Shown: positions 1-7,454 of the stretch, one piece after another
How the letters are laid out: each line of letters starts with the position of its first letter
Position numbering within the stretch: the stretch's first letter is position 1
From: Caenibius sp. WL
Lineage (GTDB): Bacteria; Pseudomonadota; Alphaproteobacteria; Sphingomonadales; Sphingomonadaceae
Length of the DNA: 64,000 nt
Assembly (NCBI RefSeq): GCF_019803445.1
Contig: NZ_CP081844.1
Location: 570,501-634,500 of the forward strand
Reading direction: 5' to 3'
Translations under genes and position numbers: made by a program
The notes under the pieces: generated by a model
The model's input: only the letters and a program-made list of their open reading frames with translations
Told to the model about the DNA's origin: nothing
The model's database searches: none

Positions 1-836
1 GCGAGGCGGAACAGGCCCGCCGCCTTGGTGCCGGCGAAATAGCCGACCGCGAGCAGCGGCCCGTTACGGATCGCCGCGTCCACCGTGGCGGTGGCGAAAG
101 TGATGAGGAAGAAACGGACGATCCCGAGGTTTTCGTGCAGCGCCCGCCGCCAGTCGCGCATCACCCGCCAGTTGATCGCTTCGGGGGCGAGACGGCGCGC
201 CAGCAGCCAGTAGAGCAGCGCTTCGATGAGATCGATCACCGCCCAGGCGATCAGGAAACGAATAAGGCTGGGTTCGGTGAGCCAGATGGCGACGGCGGCG
301 ATCAGCCGGCCGATCGGCACCACCGCTTCGACATATGTCGCCGCATCGAACCGGTCGAGCGCGCGCACGATGCCGGTCGGAGCCGAGACCAGCGCCCATA
401 TCGCCGCGACGTTGAACCAGAACGCGGTCTGGACCAGATCGGGATTGATATCCAGCGCGTCGCTGAACTGGAAGAACACCACCCAGGCGATCAGTGTCCC
501 GGTGATCGCGCCGAGAATATCGAGCAATCCGCACAAGGCGCTGAGGCGGCCGAAAGCGCCCCAATCCTTGTTGTGGACGTATTCCGCGCCATAGCGCACC
601 ACGATCCGCCAGGTCTGGAACCCGGCCAGCGCCACAAGCGCCTGCGATGTGCCGAAAATCAGCGAAAAGTGGCCGAAACCCTTGATCCCGAGCGTACGGG
701 TGAGAATCGCCAGATAGAGCAGGCTGCAAATCGCACCAAACCCTTTGCCCCCCAACAGCCAGACGGTGTTGGTGAGCATGCGGCCCAGCAGGGATTGGGG
801 CATTGGTCGCGAGCGGGCCTTCGGCGGCATTGCCAT
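1..836 (-). CDS. Polysaccharide flippase (Wzx/oligosaccharide flippase family), 3' part outside window
   Basis: This is the N-terminal ~278 residues of a multi-pass inner-membrane protein; the gene continues beyond base 1. Translated on the minus strand it reads as alternating hydrophobic helices, beginning near NTVWLLGGKGFGAICSLLYL and followed by a TRTLGIKGFGHFSLIF-type stretch. That N-terminus is typical of MATE/MVF-superfamily flippases that move lipid-linked oligosaccharides across the inner membrane. Three in-frame ATGs are possible starts (836, 830 and 803). I give the longest; an AAAGG lies just before 836, and homology would begin near 803. The gene is divergent from the nucleotidyltransferase at 1019, so it may share a promoter region with the envelope island. 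A lipid or teichoic-acid exporter of the same fold is an alternative. Confidence 0.75.
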   Translation of the reverse strand, partial: MAMPPKARSRPMPQSLLGRMLTNTVWLLGGKGFGAICSLLYLAILTRTLGIKGFGHFSLIFGTSQALVALAGFQTWRIVVRYGAEYVHNKDWGAFGRLSALCGLLDILGAITGTLIAWVVFFQFSDALDINPDLVQTAFWFNVAAIWALVSAPTGIVRALDRFDAATYVEAVVPIGRLIAAVAIWLTEPSLIRFLIAWAVIDLIEALLYWLLARRLAPEAINWRVMRDWRRALHENLGIVRFFLITFATATVDAAIRNGPLLAVGYFAGTKAAGLFRL

Positions 837-982
837 AGCCTTTGGACGACGCGCCGGTTTTGCGCAAGCGGCATCGGCAGGGGAGGGGGCAGGGAGGGGC
901 AAGGGTGGCCCGCTGTCGGACAGGAAGGCAGGGACGGCGAAGCCGATAAACCGTGAGCTGTGCGCGGCGAAAACATATTCGC

Positions 983-1011
983 TTCATTCCGGGCCGATCA
1001 CGCACTAGAGC
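983..1011 (+). promoter_or_regulatory. Possible core promoter TTCATT-N17-TAGAGC
   Basis: A TTCATT at 983-988 and a TAGAGC at 1006-1011 are spaced by 17 bases, immediately before the nucleotidyltransferase ATG at 1019. If used, transcription would start almost at the ATG, giving a leaderless or nearly leaderless mRNA. The same CTAGAGC string recurs upstream of thrS and between rnd and ung. This is pattern matching only. Confidence 0.25.
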
Positions 1012-1018
1012 AACGGCG

Positions 1019-1765
1019 ATGATTGAACACGCCATACTGCTCAGCGCCGGGCAAGGCTCGCGCATGTTGCCGCTCACGGTTGACCGACCCAAATGCCTGA
1101 TCGAGTTTTCGGGCCGCTCCCTGTTGGCCTGGCAGATAGAGATGCTGGCGCGGGGGGGCGTGCGCCGGATCGACGTGGTGACCGGCTTCATGACCGATAT
1201 GGTCGATGAGGCGATCGCTGCGATCGATGATCCCCGGGTGGAGATCCGCACCCGTTTCAATCCGTTCTACAAAGTGGCCGACAATCTCGGGTCATGCTGG
1301 ATCGCACGCGAGGCAATGCACGGCGATTTCCTGATTCTCAACGGCGATACCCTGGTGTCGGACGAGATTGTGGCCAAAGTGCAGGAAGACAACGGCTGGC
1401 CGATCGCGGTGACGGTGGATGTCAAGGACAGCTACGACAGCGACGATATGAAAGTGGCCCGCGAAGGCGAACGGTTGATCCGCATCGGCAAAACGCTGAG
1501 CGCGGAAGAAACCAATGCCGAATCGATCGGTTTCCTTGCTTTCCGCCGGGAAGGCGCGGCGCTGTTCCGTGAAGCAGTGCGCGCTGCGATGCGCACGCCT
1601 GAAGGGGTGCAGCACTGGTATCTCAAAGTGATCGACAGTCTGGCACCCACCGGAAAAGTGGGCACGGTGGCGATTGAGGGGCTGGGCTGGGCCGAAGTCG
1701 ATTTCCTTAACGATATCGAGATCGCAACCGGTCTGACCGATCAGTGGGCCGCCGCCGCAGGCTGA
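1019..1765 (+). CDS. Sugar/polyol-phosphate nucleotidyltransferase (IPCT/LicC-like)
   Basis: A 248-residue NTP_transferase. The nucleotide-binding signature AGQGSRMLPLT lies at residues 10-20 with PK at 24-25, and the metal-binding NGD sits at 108-110. The segment around residues 81-94 (NPFYKVADNLGSCW) and the C-terminal EVDFLNDIEIA resemble phosphocholine (LicC) and inositol-1-phosphate cytidylyltransferases more than hexose-1-phosphate enzymes. By inference it makes a CDP-polyol or another NDP-headgroup for the neighbouring CDP-alcohol phosphotransferase (3339-4475). The ATG at 1019 is chosen because the signature starts directly after it; the open frame extends upstream without homology. 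The last 25 bases overlap, tail to tail, the glycosyltransferase at 1741-2898. Substrate is not determinable from sequence. Confidence 0.8.
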   Translation: MIEHAILLSAGQGSRMLPLTVDRPKCLIEFSGRSLLAWQIEMLARGGVRRIDVVTGFMTDMVDEAIAAIDDPRVEIRTRFNPFYKVADNLGSCWIAREAMHGDFLILNGDTLVSDEIVAKVQEDNGWPIAVTVDVKDSYDSDDMKVAREGERLIRIGKTLSAEETNAESIGFLAFRREGAALFREAVRAAMRTPEGVQHWYLKVIDSLAPTGKVGTVAIEGLGWAEVDFLNDIEIATGLTDQWAAAAG

Positions 1766-2898
1766 TCGGCGTCCGCCAGTTCGGCGAACAGCCGCGCGTA
1801 GGCGTCCAGCGTCTTGCCGATGTCGAAATCCTGCACTCTCGTGCTGGGCTCTATCCGGGTTGCCGGATCGCACTGGCGCAGGATCGCCTCGGCCATAGCG
1901 TCCGCATCCGCAGGATCGACCAGCACGCCATAGCGCCCGTCATCGACCACTTCGGCGGCATTGCCCGCCGTGCGCGATGCGACCACCGGAGTCCCGCAGG
2001 CCATCGCTTCCAGCAGGACATTGGCCGATCCTTCCCAGAAGGAAGGCAGGACCAGCGCCGTGGCGCGGGCGATATAGGGGAACGGATTGGCCACCCGGCC
2101 AACGAAATCGAGCGCGCCGGTCAGACCCAGCGAAGCGGCCAACTGCTCAAGCTCCGCTCGTTTCTCGGGTGAGCCGCCACCCAGCAGGATCAGCCGCAGG
2201 TCCCGCGTCTGGCGGGCCCGGGCGAGCGCACGGAGCAAAGTGGGGAAATTCTTCTGTTGCACCAGCCGGCCCACGGCGATCAGCACCGGAATATCTTCAT
2301 CGAACCACGGATGGCCGGCAGGGGCATCCTTCTGCGCGGCGACCGCTGCCAGCGGCACGCCGTTGCGGATGACCATCGCCTTGCCCTTGCGCAATGCGCG
2401 GCTCAGCACCGCTTCCCGGGCGAGGTTGGGCGAAACCAGTACCAGCTTTGCCGCATCGCGGGCGATCCATCCCGCGACCAATCGCCGCCGGAGCGCGCCG
2501 GGCAGCGCGCTGAGATTGCCCGATTTGTGTGCCAGATCGTTGCTGATGCGATAGACGCGCAGCGGCCGTTCCAGCCCCCGCGTGGCGAGCAGGCATGGCA
2601 GATGCGCGTGATTGCCTGCCGAAAGCAGGATGTCGGGCGGATTGTCCCTTATCAGCGCGCGCAGACGGGGAACGGCCCGGATCAAGGCTCGTGAACGCCG
2701 GGCGCGGGTTTCCTTGCCGGTCAGCAGGACATCGCGTGCGATCCCTTCCGCCGCGCTGGCCAGATCGCCCCCTTCGTGTCCCAGCAGCAGGCGCACCCGC
2801 CACCCGGCCACTTCCTGCATATGGTGGGCGATGGCCAGCGCGTTGCGGACGACGCCGGTGGCGGAAAGATCATGAACGAAAATAGCGATGGAAGGCAT
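1741..2898 (-). CDS. GT-B glycosyltransferase, family 4
   Basis: A 385-residue retaining glycosyltransferase. The C-terminal Glyco_trans_1 domain shows AVGRLVQQKNFPTLL near residues 208-222 and the E-x7-E donor-binding motif (E289...E297, in WEGSANVLLEAM), followed by GTPVVAS. No transmembrane segments are evident, so it should act at the cytoplasmic face. It is the last gene of a minus-strand operon (CDP-alcohol phosphotransferase, HIT protein, this gene), 15 bases after the HIT stop codon. From context it may glycosylate the lipid or glycan intermediate made by the island. Donor and acceptor cannot be read from the sequence. Confidence 0.88.
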   Translation of the reverse strand: MPSIAIFVHDLSATGVVRNALAIAHHMQEVAGWRVRLLLGHEGGDLASAAEGIARDVLLTGKETRARRSRALIRAVPRLRALIRDNPPDILLSAGNHAHLPCLLATRGLERPLRVYRISNDLAHKSGNLSALPGALRRRLVAGWIARDAAKLVLVSPNLAREAVLSRALRKGKAMVIRNGVPLAAVAAQKDAPAGHPWFDEDIPVLIAVGRLVQQKNFPTLLRALARARQTRDLRLILLGGGSPEKRAELEQLAASLGLTGALDFVGRVANPFPYIARATALVLPSFWEGSANVLLEAMACGTPVVASRTAGNAAEVVDDGRYGVLVDPADADAMAEAILRQCDPATRIEPSTRVQDFDIGKTLDAYARLFAELADADQPAAAAH

Positions 2899-2913
2899 AC
2901 CCGGACTCTGGAA

Positions 2914-3342
2914 TCAGCCGAAACAGGCGGCGATCTCCTCCCGCAGACGGGCCTTTTCCTCCTGATCGAGAGCGACGGCCTGACCGAGATCGGGAACCTT
3001 GGGCCATCCCGCATCGGTGAAAGTGCGCCCGTTCCATTCGCGCGCGCCGTCATAGCGTGGGATGACATGGAAATGGACGTGCGGATCGACCATCATCAGC
3101 ATCAGATAGTTGATCCTGGCGTAATTCACGAACTGGCCGAGCCCGGATTCGATAGCCTGTGTGATCGGCGCGAGTTCGGCATGGGCGGGGGTGGGCAGAT
3201 CGCCGAACGCCGTCGCATCCGATTTGGCGGCCAGCACCAGACTGCCGAGCGTGGGCTGGGCGGGGCGCAGCAGCACCACCCAGTGATCGAATTCGCGGAT
3301 CAGCGTGTCAGGATAGCCGAAAGTGCGGATTGTCTCGTTCAT
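2914..3342 (-). CDS. HIT-family nucleotide hydrolase/transferase
   Basis: A 142-residue HIT-domain protein. The histidine triad H-x-H-x-H is at residues 88-92 (PHVHFHVIP), preceded by ARINYLMLMM. HIT enzymes hydrolyse or transfer nucleoside monophosphates from dinucleotides, nucleotide sugars or acyl-adenylates. Its start codon overlaps the stop of the CDP-alcohol phosphotransferase (ATGA at 3339-3342), which indicates translational coupling and a shared task. It might recycle a nucleotide by-product or hydrolyse a CDP-alcohol. That role is inference. Confidence 0.88.
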   Translation of the reverse strand: MNETIRTFGYPDTLIREFDHWVVLLRPAQPTLGSLVLAAKSDATAFGDLPTPAHAELAPITQAIESGLGQFVNYARINYLMLMMVDPHVHFHVIPRYDGAREWNGRTFTDAGWPKVPDLGQAVALDQEEKARLREEIAACFG

Positions 3343-4475
3343 GCTTTCCCTTCTGCCAGCCAGGACGTGATCGTGCCACCCCGGGCGACGAAAATGCGGG
3401 CATGGATCAACTGCACCAGATGCACCGCGCAGCTCAGCACTGTCCACCATGCAACCGCGATGATGCCGAGATCGGGGCGGGAAAACAGCATGGATACGAA
3501 CAGGATCACCATGTTCGGGTTGCGGCGGGCGGTGATCAGGCGGAACTGGCTGTCGAATTTGCGCCAGACGTGGATATGCAGCCCGTCGAACGAGCGAATG
3601 AAGATTCCTTCGATCAGCCGCTGGACGATATAGCCGCCCTGAATCGCGCCCTGCACCCACCAGAAGGTGGTGGTGTCGAGCGCCAGCCCCCAGTAGACCA
3701 GTCCGGTTGCCCAGAACCACCACCAGAAGGGGGGATGGACCAGATCGATTCCGTGGTCGAAAATGTTCCCCCACCAGCTTGAGGTGATCGTGCAGCGGGC
3801 CAGTTTGCCGTCTACCGTGTCGAGCACCATGAAGCCCAGCCCCATCGCCATGCCTTCCCAATAGCGGCCATAAGCGAAAGCGAACGTGGCAGCCACGCAG
3901 AGGAACGCCCCCAGCGCTGTCACCATGTTCGGCGTGATGCCGCACTTCGCGGCGAGCCGGGTCAGCACCAGAGCCCATTCGGGCCACAGGTACTTGGTCA
4001 GGATATCCGTGACACCCTTGTAAGCCCCGAAATAGCTGGCGCGTTCGGCCTGCCGCACGCTTTGCGGAGTCAGGGCCATCAGGAATGGCGTCTCCCGCTT
4101 GCGGAGCTGCTTGTTCGTGATGGTGGGCTTGTCCTCAAACGCCAGCACGGTGGCATCGCCGGTTGTATTCAGCGGGCCCCCCCCGTCGATCGCCCGGCGG
4201 ATCGCCGCCGCCTCTTCCGCCGTGCGGGCGTGGGCCAGCGCCGGGACACCGCCCAGCGTCAGCACCAGGCCGGGGTTTTCCGCCACGTGGCGGAACCATG
4301 CCGGATCGAACGCGACATTGGCATTGGCGATGACGACAGGGGCGATATCGTCATCCCGCAGCCCCGCCGCCCGGGCAAGACGCCGGGTGCGTTCGGCCAT
4401 CGTCAGGCCCCACAGCGGGGTCGGGTTGTTGCCAACAGTCTCGCTGCCCGGTTTGGAGTGATTGTCGGTGTTCAT
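3339..4475 (-). CDS. CDP-alcohol phosphotransferase with extra N-terminal domain
   Basis: A 378-residue membrane enzyme. The complete CDP-alcohol phosphotransferase motif is present: D219-x2-D222-G223-x2-A226-R227-x8-G236-x3-D240-x3-D244, in a series of C-terminal hydrophobic helices. Such enzymes transfer a phospho-alcohol from a CDP-alcohol to a second alcohol (phosphatidylinositol, -glycerol, di-inositol phosphate and others). Residues 1-~165 are extra compared with a minimal ~200-residue enzyme. The linker KRETPFLMALTPQSVRQAER followed by ITPNMVT is like that of bifunctional inositol-phosphate cytidylyltransferase/DIPP synthases, but no NTase signature is left in the N-terminal part. The ATG at 4475 is preferred over an upstream in-frame start at 4604. 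It is first in an operon with the HIT and glycosyltransferase genes and divergent from the lipid kinase. Confidence 0.88.
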   Translation of the reverse strand: MNTDNHSKPGSETVGNNPTPLWGLTMAERTRRLARAAGLRDDDIAPVVIANANVAFDPAWFRHVAENPGLVLTLGGVPALAHARTAEEAAAIRRAIDGGGPLNTTGDATVLAFEDKPTITNKQLRKRETPFLMALTPQSVRQAERASYFGAYKGVTDILTKYLWPEWALVLTRLAAKCGITPNMVTALGAFLCVAATFAFAYGRYWEGMAMGLGFMVLDTVDGKLARCTITSSWWGNIFDHGIDLVHPPFWWWFWATGLVYWGLALDTTTFWWVQGAIQGGYIVQRLIEGIFIRSFDGLHIHVWRKFDSQFRLITARRNPNMVILFVSMLFSRPDLGIIAVAWWTVLSCAVHLVQLIHARIFVARGGTITSWLAEGKA

Positions 4476-4606
4476 TGTGTGCCAGCCGGCCCCATGATTG
4501 TTTGCAGTCCGACTAAGGCCTGGCGTGGGCGATGACAATGGGATGGCAACAGACTGCGTCTGATAAGGTAAGTGGACGGATTTTAGAAAAGTTCCTGAAT
4601 CCAATA

Positions 4607-4619
4607 GGATAGTCTATCC
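4607..4619. promoter_or_regulatory. Operator-like dyad GGATAG-T-CTATCC
   Basis: This is a perfect 6+1+6 inverted repeat near the middle of the 229-base AT-rich spacer (4476-4704) between the two divergent envelope-island operons. Its symmetry and placement fit a dimeric repressor or activator site. No regulator gene lies next to it. Confidence 0.4.
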
Positions 4620-4658
4620 CATGAGTTGGCGGCTATCGCAAAAAGCCGTTTCGTGTAA

Positions 4659-4674
4659 AAAAACGGTAGTTTTT
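4659..4674. promoter_or_regulatory. AT-rich dyad AAAAAC-GGTA-GTTTTT
   Basis: A second perfect inverted repeat in the same divergent spacer, about 30-45 bases before the lipid-kinase start at 4705. It could be a protein-binding site or an mRNA leader hairpin. It stands out against the GC-rich surroundings. Confidence 0.35.
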
Positions 4675-4704
4675 CGCGCCTGCAACATCGATATAGCGCG
4701 CCTG

Positions 4705-5751
4705 ATGGAAGGATCGATCTACCAGTTCGACGGCAGGTCGCGGTCGATGGCCGCCCGATCCGGCGCGCCGGTCGCGGTCGTGCACCCGCGCGTACCGCCC
4801 GCCCTGCGTGACGTGCCGCTGGTCGGAGTGATCCGCAATCCGCGCAGTCATCGCAACAAGGGCCACCTGCCCGAACTGGATGGCCAGCCCAATATCCTGA
4901 CCGCCAGCCCGCCGACTCGCAGCGAACTGGCCCGCGTGCTCAGCGGTTTTGCCGAGCGCGGCATCGATCTGCTTGCGGTCGACGGCGGGGATGGCACCGT
5001 CCGCGATGTGCTCACCTGTGGCGCCGCAGCTTTTGGCGATCATTGGCCGCGCCTGATCGTTCTGCCCAAAGGCAAGACCAACGCGCTGGCGGTCGATCTC
5101 GGGCTGCCCAACCATTGGGCCCTGTCCGACGCATTGATCGCGGCAGTGGATGGGCACCTTGTCGAACGACGTCCGATCTTGGTCGAACAGGCCGATGGGC
5201 AGGGTGTGCCGGTGCTCGGCTATGTCTTTGGCGCGGGCATTTTCACCACCGCCACGCAAGACGGGCAGACCGCACACAAGCTGGGGGCGTTCAACAGCTT
5301 CGCCGTGGCGCTGACGGCTGTCGCGGGTGTGTTTCAGGCGTTGTTCGGCCTCGGTGCATCGCCGTGGCGCACCGCCACCGGCATGCGTATCTATGACGCG
5401 GCGGATGGCAGCGAAGTCCCGCATTCGGGCCATGGGCGGCGCGATCAGCGCTATGCGATGGCCTTTTCCACGCTGAAACGCTTTCCGGCGGGGCTCAATC
5501 CTTTCGGCCGGCCCCGGCCGGGCATTCGCTATGCGCTGCTCGATGCGCCGCTGCGGCGGGTGGTCGCGCTCGTGCCCGGATTGCTGATGGGCTGGGATCG
5601 CCCCGCTTTTCAGAAGCTGGGCGTGCATCGCGGCGCGGTGGACGAGGCGCTGGTGGATCTGGATGGCAGCTTCATTCTCGATGGCGAAGCCTTTCCCGCG
5701 GGGCGTTATCGCTTGCGCCTCGGCCCGAAGATCCAGTTCGTCGCCCCCTGA
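4705..5751 (+). CDS. Diacylglycerol/ceramide-kinase-type lipid kinase
   Basis: A 348-residue DAGK-catalytic-domain protein. The glycine-rich ATP loop GGDGT is at residues 94-98, preceded by NPRSHRNKG at 45-53. PKGKTNALA at 121-129 matches the PxGTxN-type segment of YegS/DgkB/sphingosine-kinase relatives. It should phosphorylate a lipid hydroxyl (diacylglycerol, ceramide or similar) at the membrane. The ATG at 4705 has a weak ribosome site; starts at 4621 and 4747 are alternatives. Ten bases separate it from the Tam41-like gene. Kinase followed by a CTP-transferase fold is the order expected for making a CDP-activated lipid. The lipid substrate is unknown. Confidence 0.8.
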   Translation: MEGSIYQFDGRSRSMAARSGAPVAVVHPRVPPALRDVPLVGVIRNPRSHRNKGHLPELDGQPNILTASPPTRSELARVLSGFAERGIDLLAVDGGDGTVRDVLTCGAAAFGDHWPRLIVLPKGKTNALAVDLGLPNHWALSDALIAAVDGHLVERRPILVEQADGQGVPVLGYVFGAGIFTTATQDGQTAHKLGAFNSFAVALTAVAGVFQALFGLGASPWRTATGMRIYDAADGSEVPHSGHGRRDQRYAMAFSTLKRFPAGLNPFGRPRPGIRYALLDAPLRRVVALVPGLLMGWDRPAFQKLGVHRGAVDEALVDLDGSFILDGEAFPAGRYRLRLGPKIQFVAP

Positions 5752-5760
5752 TCGCCAGCG

Positions 5761-6690
5761 ATGGGGTCACCCGTTTCCGATAGCCCTGCATCGCCCGGCG
5801 CGCTGAAGGCGAGAGTCGCCGCCAGCCTCGATGCGCCGATGGCTCCGCTGGTGCGCGCCTATGCAACCAAGCTGGCGGAAGCAGCCGGGGCGCAGGCCGT
5901 GTTGTTTTACGGTTCGAACCTGCGCACGGGCGAACTGGAAGGTGTGCTCGATTTCTACGTTCTTCTGCCCGGCCCGCGGGAAAGCGGAATTTGGCCCCGG
6001 GTCAGCTATCACGAGTGGGAGCATGATGGGCAGGTGCTTCGGGCCAAAGTGGCCACGATGCATCTGGCGACGTTCCACGCCGCCGCGTCTGGCGATCTGC
6101 TCGACACCACGATCTGGGCCCGCTTCGTTCAGCCCTGCGCTCTGGCCTGGGTGCGGGACGAGGCGGCGCGCGCAGGGGTGATCGATGCCATCGCCGCCGC
6201 GATCGTCACCGCCACGCGGCTGGCGGTGGCGCTGGGGCCGCAGACCGGGGTAGCGGAAGATTTCTGGCGGGCGCTGTTCCGCGCGACTTACAAAGCGGAA
6301 TTCCGGGTGGAAAAGCCGGGGCGGGAAGATACCATTCTCGCCGCCAACCGCGCCCATTTCGATGGTCTGCTGTCGGTGGCACTGGAAGCCGCGAACATCC
6401 CCTGCACGCGCGTGGGCGCGCAGCTCGCCCCGCTGATGAAAGGTGGGGAGCGCAACCGTATCCGCCGCTGGTGGTCGCGGCGGCGGCGGTTGGGCAAGCC
6501 TTACAATCTGGCGCGGCTGGTCCGCGCGACTGCGACGTTCGATGGGGCCGCGCGCTACGCCGCGTGGAAAGTGGAACGGCATACCGGTGTCGCGGTCGCG
6601 GTGACGCCGTGGCGGGAGAAGCATCCGCTGCTGGCTGCGCCCGGGGTGTTGTGGCGCGTCTGGCGCGAACGGCGCAAGCAGCAGGCATGA
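5761..6690 (+). CDS. Tam41-like nucleotidyltransferase-fold protein (putative CDP-lipid synthase)
   Basis: A 309-residue protein that most annotators would leave hypothetical. Motif order resembles Tam41/Mmp37, the mitochondrial CTP:phosphatidate cytidylyltransferase. YGS is at residues 50-52 after a hydrophobic strand (AVLFYGS), LDF at 63-65 on the next strand, then a KVATMHLATF segment. RFVQP at 121-125 parallels the R-x-Q-K/R-P stretch of Tam41. YKAEFRVE at 177-184 parallels the Y-x-x-D-F-R segment. The order and spacing were judged from memory of the family, not from an alignment. The inferred role is CTP-dependent activation of the phospholipid made by the kinase upstream. Its stop overlaps the start of the next gene (ATGA). 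A different polymerase-beta-fold function remains possible. Confidence 0.6.
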   Translation: MGSPVSDSPASPGALKARVAASLDAPMAPLVRAYATKLAEAAGAQAVLFYGSNLRTGELEGVLDFYVLLPGPRESGIWPRVSYHEWEHDGQVLRAKVATMHLATFHAAASGDLLDTTIWARFVQPCALAWVRDEAARAGVIDAIAAAIVTATRLAVALGPQTGVAEDFWRALFRATYKAEFRVEKPGREDTILAANRAHFDGLLSVALEAANIPCTRVGAQLAPLMKGGERNRIRRWWSRRRRLGKPYNLARLVRATATFDGAARYAAWKVERHTGVAVAVTPWREKHPLLAAPGVLWRVWRERRKQQA

Positions 6691-7454
6691 GCATGCCCAT
6701 CCCGGTGCCATCGGCGCTTATTCTGGCCGGATCGCGCCCCGGCGCGCCCGATCCGGTGGCGCAGGCCGAAGGTGTGGCGCACAAGGCGCTGGTGCTGGTC
6801 GACGGCGCGCCACTGCTGACGCGGGTCCATGCCGCTCTGCGCGCGGCCGGGGTGGAACGGGTCGCGGTGGCGGCCGATGCGCCGGAGGTGGTGGCGCTGG
6901 CCGAGCGGCTGGGGGCGGAAGTGATCCCGCCCGAAAGCGGGCCGAGCGGCAGCGTAGCCCGCGCATTCAGCCATCTGGGTGCGCCCATGCTTGTCACCAC
7001 CGCCGATCATGCGCTGCTGCAGCCCGAATGGGTGCGGCAATTCATTGAAGATAGCCCGGTCGATGCCGATGTCGCGCTGTTGCTGGCGCGGCGCGATGCG
7101 GTCGAGCGGGCGGTGCCCGAAACGCGCCGCACCTGGCTGCGCTTTGCCGACGGGCAATGGTCGGGCTGCAATCTGTTTCTGCTGGCGAGCCCGGACGCCC
7201 GCCACGCCATTGCCACCTGGCGGGATGTGGAAGCCAACCGCAAGAAGCCGTGGCGTATCGCGGCAAAGCTCGGCCCGCGCGTCCTGTGGGATTATCTGCG
7301 GGGCACGCTGACGCTGGGTGAAGCCGTGGCAAGGCTGGGGCGGCGGATCGGTATCCGCGCGGCGATGGTGCCGGCGCGGGACGGCCTGGCCGCTGTCGAT
7401 GTCGACAAGGTTGCCGATCTGGCGCTGGTGCGATCGGTGGCCGCCAGGCGTTAG
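6687..7454 (+). CDS. MobA-like NTP transferase, variant signature
   Basis: A 255-residue protein of the NTP_transf_3 type. It starts with a Rossmann-like SALILAGSRPG (residues 9-19), then HKALVLVDG (32-40), and has TTADHALL near 104-111 where related enzymes keep a metal-binding aspartate. The usual GxGxR...PK signature is altered: an insertion separates the glycine turn from the lysine. It is third in the kinase/Tam41-like operon, with a 4-base overlap upstream. It may make the activated head group, distinct from that of the enzyme at 1019. Substrate unknown. Confidence 0.7.
   Translation: MSMPIPVPSALILAGSRPGAPDPVAQAEGVAHKALVLVDGAPLLTRVHAALRAAGVERVAVAADAPEVVALAERLGAEVIPPESGPSGSVARAFSHLGAPMLVTTADHALLQPEWVRQFIEDSPVDADVALLLARRDAVERAVPETRRTWLRFADGQWSGCNLFLLASPDARHAIATWRDVEANRKKPWRIAAKLGPRVLWDYLRGTLTLGEAVARLGRRIGIRAAMVPARDGLAAVDVDKVADLALVRSVAARR

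Follow-up and report, generated by a model that had tools for sequence, protein, structure and literature searches.

The start of the stretch of DNA analysed here, 64,000 nucleotides of Caenibius sp. WL (G000:C1:570501-634500 of a 3.49 Mb genome; hereafter the window), holds an island of lipid genes that is very probably (probability about 0.87) the sphingomonad version of the Caulobacter phosphosphingolipid gene cluster for ceramide phosphoglycerate (CPG) and ceramide diphosphoglycerate (CPG2). The C. crescentus genes, CC_1152-CC_1168, include those for the ceramide kinase CpgB (CC_1160), CpgC (CC_1161) with its CDP-diacylglycerol-synthase domain, CpgA (CC_1159) with a CDP-alcohol domain, CpgD (CC_1152), which produces CDP-glycerate, the CofC-like CC_1153 and the potential flippase CC_1166, and the lipid is believed to be exported by LptC2/F2/G2 (PMC11324152, PMC12275187); cpgA-D are also designated CCNA_01210 and CCNA_01217-01219. 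CpgB and CpgC are required for CPG, and CpgA, CpgD and CC_1153 for CPG2. A preliminary description of the window had proposed a CDP-dependent lipid head-group pathway and had known of no described pathway with this exact gene set. The first proposal is borne out by the match to the Caulobacter CPG2 gene set, but apart from a glycosyltransferase the genes are those already described for CPG2 (PMC11324152, PMC12275187, PMC10331486), and this literature together with the matching clusters rules out a new lipid pathway. The observation is sound and the claimed novelty is not; the co-occurrence of a small HIT protein and the split into a core and an extension are useful additions to the pathway. 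The gene set itself was present, with eight intact genes across 1-7454 whose open reading frames end where the description had placed their stops:

1..902, minus strand: flippase-like membrane protein, counterpart of CC_1166 (Polysacc_synt, PF01943, E 4.7e-11)
1019..1765, plus strand: CpgD-type CTP:phosphoglycerate cytidylyltransferase (CC_1152 type; Pfam NTP_transferase)
1741..2898, minus strand: family-4 glycosyltransferase (GT4), an accessory gene (PF13692, E 2.3e-36)
2914..3342, minus strand: HIT-family hydrolase (PF01230), matching the gene in the place of CC_1157
3339..4475, minus strand: CpgA-type CDP-alcohol phosphotransferase (CC_1159 type; CDP-OH_P_transf, PF01066)
4705..5751, plus strand: CpgB-type ceramide kinase (CC_1160 type; DAGK_cat, PF00781)
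5761..6690, plus strand: CpgC (CC_1161 type), a Tam41-fold nucleotidyltransferase and candidate CDP-ceramide synthase (no Pfam match)
6687..7454, plus strand: CC_1153-type CofC/MobA-like nucleotidyltransferase (NTP_transf_3, PF12804, E 1.1e-16)

Homologs of all seven proteins (CpgD, CC_1153, HIT, CpgA-C and the flippase) were found within a cluster of about 16 kb at each of the loci L171, L172 and L175, whose genomes we infer from the gene order and the CpgD residue numbering to be Caulobacter-like. Measured against these Caulobacterales clusters, which have the published gene order and stand in for the C. crescentus proteins, the identity of the window proteins was 55% for the CC_1153 type, 52-60% for HIT, 50-51% for CpgD, 49-51% for CpgC, 42-43% for CpgA, 37-40% for CpgB and 27-28% for the flippase; over the Caulobacter-type clusters as a whole the values reached 56% for the CC_1153 type and 52% for CpgD and CpgC. 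The order at L172 is CpgD, CC_1153, CerS, LptG2, LptF2, HIT, metallophosphoesterase, CpgA, CpgB, CpgC, Spt, ACP, acyl-CoA synthetase and flippase, which equals the published C. crescentus order from CC_1152 to CC_1166, and the HIT gene therefore stands in the place of CC_1157. In the window the orthologs required for CPG are adjacent and those required for CPG2 are all present. When the HIT protein was sought in 100 genomes of the order to which Hyphomonas johnsonii belongs, 10 were positive, and nine of these, all but G308 (cluster L126), were read at the locus. The CpgC protein was present in the stretch of eight of the nine, and the ninth, L174, which is cut at a contig end, showed HIT, CC_1153-type and CpgD-type genes. 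Most cpg genes also stood together in Hyphomonas johnsonii (L126), Hyphomonas sp. (L121), Roseovarius (L117/L118) and a Hellea record. A CpgC profile scan of genome contigs matched Dongia, Kordiimonas, Hyphomonas, Hellea and others, and C. vibrioides was not among its matches. The check that the genes should travel together thus came out in the affirmative: they cluster in the genus, in the Caulobacterales and in other families, orders and classes, which places the clustering of the island far beyond chance.

The kinase encoded at 4705 carries an intact GGDG motif and lacks CxxxCxxC, scores far below the cut-off of the YegS/DagK NCBIfam models and adjoins CpgC in nearly every locus; from its identity and neighbourhood it would belong to the CpgB clade. 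The protein encoded at 5761 gave no Pfam, NCBIfam or Tam41 PDB match by sequence and was placed by fold comparison alone. An AlphaFold2 model built from 20 orthologs (pLDDT 91.7) was compared with the PDB by Foldseek, and the four best matches were all Tam41 CDP-diacylglycerol synthases with a probability of 1.00 (Tam41 matches 6ig4, 6ig2 and 7ecd; E 2.4e-7 to 1.4e-5). The earlier call of a Tam41-like enzyme agrees with this result, and the structure prediction that had been proposed as a check puts the protein within a lipid-modifying fold. The mechanism of CpgC is given as unidentified in the Caulobacter literature; because of the Tam41 fold, CTP-dependent activation of ceramide-1-phosphate is the best reading, and CpgC is most likely a CTP transferase making CDP-ceramide.

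Ceramide phosphate had been named as a plausible substrate, and the genome agrees with this. The spt gene lies at C1:67878-69020 (52% identity) and cerS at C1:3356288-3357427, the latter neighboured by LptF2- and LptG2-like genes (28-29% identity), and since spt and cerS are both present ceramide is the likely substrate. Of 121 genomes of Sphingomonadales (GTDB sense), 75 have CpgC; its gene lay no more than 6 kb from spt in 55 of these, and in 39 the distance was at most 500 bases. The spt and cerS genes are almost universal in the order (113 and 114 of 121, respectively), so these genomes would make ceramide with or without cpg genes. The Tam41 fold, being that of a CDP-diacylglycerol synthase, would also suit a glycerolipid pathway in which phosphatidic acid from the kinase is converted to CDP-diacylglycerol by the Tam41-like enzyme and then to a new phospholipid by the CDP-alcohol phosphotransferase, and CpgB does accept diacylglycerol in vitro (PMC10331486). 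We consider this highly improbable, given the position of CpgC and the kinase near spt in those 55 genomes, their clustering in Caulobacterales with cerS, acp and lptF2/G2, and the unchanged phosphatidic acid levels after cpgB deletion in Caulobacter (PMC10331486).

The protein encoded at 1019 was compared with CpgD at 11 reference residues (PMC13228409, PMC12275187) and is identical at nine, including Arg16, Lys26, Asp112, Met147, Lys161 and Trp201; the 11 cover catalytic, CTP-contact and glycerate-contact positions, and both glycerate contacts, Met147 and Lys161, are kept. The two changes are T88A, at a backbone contact, and T93S, which retains the hydroxyl. All 11 residues were matched in place by the CpgD-position protein of L175, and the PDB matches did not include the crystal structures of CpgD itself. 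The motif of the CDP-alcohol phosphotransferase is intact, as had been claimed (DTVDGKLAR...GNIFDHGID), and CpgA adjoins the kinase and CpgC in Caulobacter-type clusters. The best NCBIfam match of the nucleotidyltransferase encoded at 6687 is CofC, below the cut-off.

These enzymes might instead join ceramide-1-phosphate to a different phospho-alcohol, phosphoinositol or some other, which GT4 might glycosylate. The best NCBIfam matches of CpgA are inositol-phosphate transferases, several substrates are used within the cytidylyltransferase family (PMC12275187), GT4 lies inside the CpgA operon in Caenibius and in G414, and CpgD has diverged in G057 (34% identity). Such a variant seems unlikely to us: the two glycerate contacts of CpgD are kept with the same spacing at about 50% overall identity, the matches of CpgA are far below cut-off, and GT4 is absent in half of the genus. 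CpgA was kept in all four genomes of the genus, of which G414 has the whole island including GT4 (68-92% identity), G412 the island without GT4, and G413, on a short contig, CpgA, HIT, CpgD and the flippase with no GT4 between HIT and CpgD. In the three genomes of the genus with loci long enough to show it, the flippase adjoins the island. Because GT4 is absent from the G412 and G413 islands it is an accessory gene, which rules it out as a general component of the pathway and leaves little of the suggestion that the lipid is possibly glycosylated.

Several related observations concern these enzymes. In G412 (L205:5806-9359) an asparagine-synthase-like amidotransferase and a GMC-type oxidoreductase lie between the kinase and CpgA, which suggests head-group variation. 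The diverged CpgD of G057 (L068:4682-5410) belongs to a complete island that lacks HIT; on visual inspection its residue at position 90 differs while the Met147/Lys161 spacing is kept, and it is a possible substrate variant. A second CpgA-like CDP-alcohol phosphotransferase (30-32% identity to the window protein) occurs in clusters L078-L082 (Dongia and relatives), L059, L073 and L120 and is a candidate for the CPG condensing enzyme. The fourth CDP-alcohol phosphotransferase of the Caenibius genome (L004:1360-2085), beside a phosphotriesterase-like gene, was considered for the same role, and an NCBIfam search gave no assignment.

The distribution of the genes over the 121 genomes divided the set into two layers. 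The 6687-type nucleotidyltransferase occurred in the same 75 genomes as CpgC and in one further, 64%-complete genome (Fisher 1e-32; the Fisher values ignore ancestry and are descriptive). Within genera g2, g3, g13 and g14 the two genes were both present or both absent, and because these within-genus contrasts agree, shared ancestry alone does not explain the pairing. CpgA was found in 16 genomes and CpgD in the same 16 and G002, all inside the CpgC set. Fifteen of the 16 CpgA genomes also had the HIT protein, and none of the 105 others did (Fisher 3e-18); the association extends to genomes in which HIT lay distant from CpgA (G105, G115) or on another contig (G010, G017). From these sets follows a core of CpgB, CpgC and the CC_1153 type, with a nested extension of CpgA, CpgD and HIT. 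The CC_1153-type gene was observed in all CpgC genomes, 59 of them without CpgA.

The HIT protein carries its HxHxHxx motif as HVHFHVI and scored 24.6 bits against PF01230 (cut-off 21.5). The evidence points to a place for this small protein in the CPG2 branch, the one new point of the analysis and a mildly new one. CC_1157 has been called "probably unrelated" in the literature, and its mutants show no high cofitness, which speaks against an essential role of HIT. On the strict co-occurrence, we give roughly even odds to the joint proposal that HIT serves the CPG2 branch as a dedicated component and that the CC_1153-type nucleotidyltransferase acts in the core with CpgB and CpgC, not only in CPG2 formation. 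The constant presence of the latter enzyme in the core fits poorly with the Caulobacter CC_1153 deletion, which still makes CPG. If true, both placements would alter the published pathway scheme.

Work by others in Caulobacter established which reactions CpgB and CpgD carry out and that CpgA, CpgC and CC_1153 are genetically required, and orthology, motifs, the Tam41 fold and co-occurrence were obtained here; from these we infer the reactions of CpgC and HIT and the lipid that Caenibius would make. The 4705 kinase would act as a ceramide kinase, CpgC would activate ceramide-1-phosphate to CDP-ceramide, and joining of glycerate would give CPG. CpgD (1019) would form CDP-glycerate from CTP and phosphoglycerate, and CpgA would move phosphoglycerate from CDP-glycerate onto CPG to yield CPG2, the second nucleotidyltransferase (CC_1153 type) being needed alongside. 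The probable substrate of HIT is a nucleotidyl intermediate or by-product arising in the CPG2 branch, which it would cleave. Outward transport would use the flippase and the Lpt-like LptF2/G2, whose genes neighbour that for ceramide synthase in another part of the genome.

Several points weigh against assigning the island to CPG/CPG2 synthesis. The identities refer to stand-ins for the C. crescentus proteins, and production of CPG and CPG2 by Caenibius sp. is predicted from genes alone. T88A and T93S depart from CpgD, cytidylyltransferases of the CpgD family use several phospho-alcohols (PMC12275187), and the in vitro phosphorylation of diacylglycerol by CpgB leaves room for a glycerolipid role (PMC10331486). 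The CC_1158 metallophosphoesterase was not found in the island, where alone it was looked for; CC_1158 is a partial requirement in Caulobacter, and S. wittichii and H. neptunium also lack it (PMC11324152). In Caulobacter, CPG2 permits life without lipopolysaccharide and influences how sensitive the cells are to polymyxin; the chemistry of the pathway is still incomplete, with putative roles for CpgA, CpgC and CC_1153. To this the comparison adds the core/extension split and, from its fold, a proposed reaction for CpgC, and it puts forward two candidates, HIT and a TagF-like protein.

The genes had been described as two divergent, coupled operons. The coupling stands, with 4-base overlaps of HIT and the CDP-alcohol phosphotransferase (3339-3342) and of CpgC and the nucleotidyltransferase (6687-6690); the number does not, as there are four transcription units. 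The flippase (minus) diverges from the 1019 gene (plus), and the GT4, HIT and CDP-alcohol phosphotransferase genes (minus) diverge from the kinase, CpgC and nucleotidyltransferase genes (plus), whereas the 1019 and GT4 genes are convergent and overlap by 25 bases. The flippase gene starts at 902 on the minus strand and its 3' end lies 504 bases beyond the window (whole gene L005:7496-8902). The island is flanked on one side by a hydroxyacylglutathione-hydrolase-like gene, recognised from its translation, and on the other by DUF2141 (PF09912) and ribulose-phosphate-epimerase-like genes, all of which look unrelated to it.

A TagF-like protein was observed in cpg clusters of 11 loci from several alphaproteobacterial families (L060:14346-15473, L068:5407-6519, L069, L117:15882-17054, L118, L186:10912-12051, L187, L188, L192, L197 and L198); neither the window nor the Caulobacter set has a gene for it, and we found no mention of it in cpg clusters in the literature searched. 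Pfam Glyphos_transf fell just below the cut-off in one of two proteins tested and did not match the other, and the sole PDB match of the profile was the TagF-like polymerase Cps3D (E 7e-4). The model has a GT-B fold and ranks UDP-GlcNAc 2-epimerases above TagF, so the TagF label derives from the weak sequence matches alone. As a speculation, the protein may extend phosphoglycerate chains.

The pathway resembles TagD/TagF teichoic acid polymerisation in transferring a CDP-activated three-carbon unit onto a membrane acceptor, and in having a TagF-like protein in several related clusters; it differs in that the CpgD fold is unlike that of CTP:glycerol-3-phosphate cytidylyltransferases (PMC13228409) and in that the window has no TagF-like gene. 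With the mitochondrial and bacterial Tam41 enzymes (6ig4, 6ig2, 7ecd) the 5761 protein shares the fold and the GS...D nucleotidyltransferase motif, but identity is 9-13% with no sequence-profile match, and its likely substrate is ceramide-1-phosphate, not phosphatidic acid. Compared with the Caulobacter cluster, Caenibius has counterparts of CpgA, CpgB, CpgC, CpgD, CC_1153, CC_1166 and the HIT gene that stands in the place of CC_1157, whereas its gene order is different, its ceramide and LptF2/G2 genes lie elsewhere in the genome, GT4 is additional and the island lacks CC_1158. Scattered orthologs without CC_1158 have been reported in Sphingomonas wittichii and Zymomonas mobilis (PMC11324152, Fig. 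7). These belong to the same order and likewise have the phosphosphingolipid genes split from the ceramide genes, but their orthologs are spread over 6 and 10 regions, respectively, whereas Caenibius carries seven in one island.

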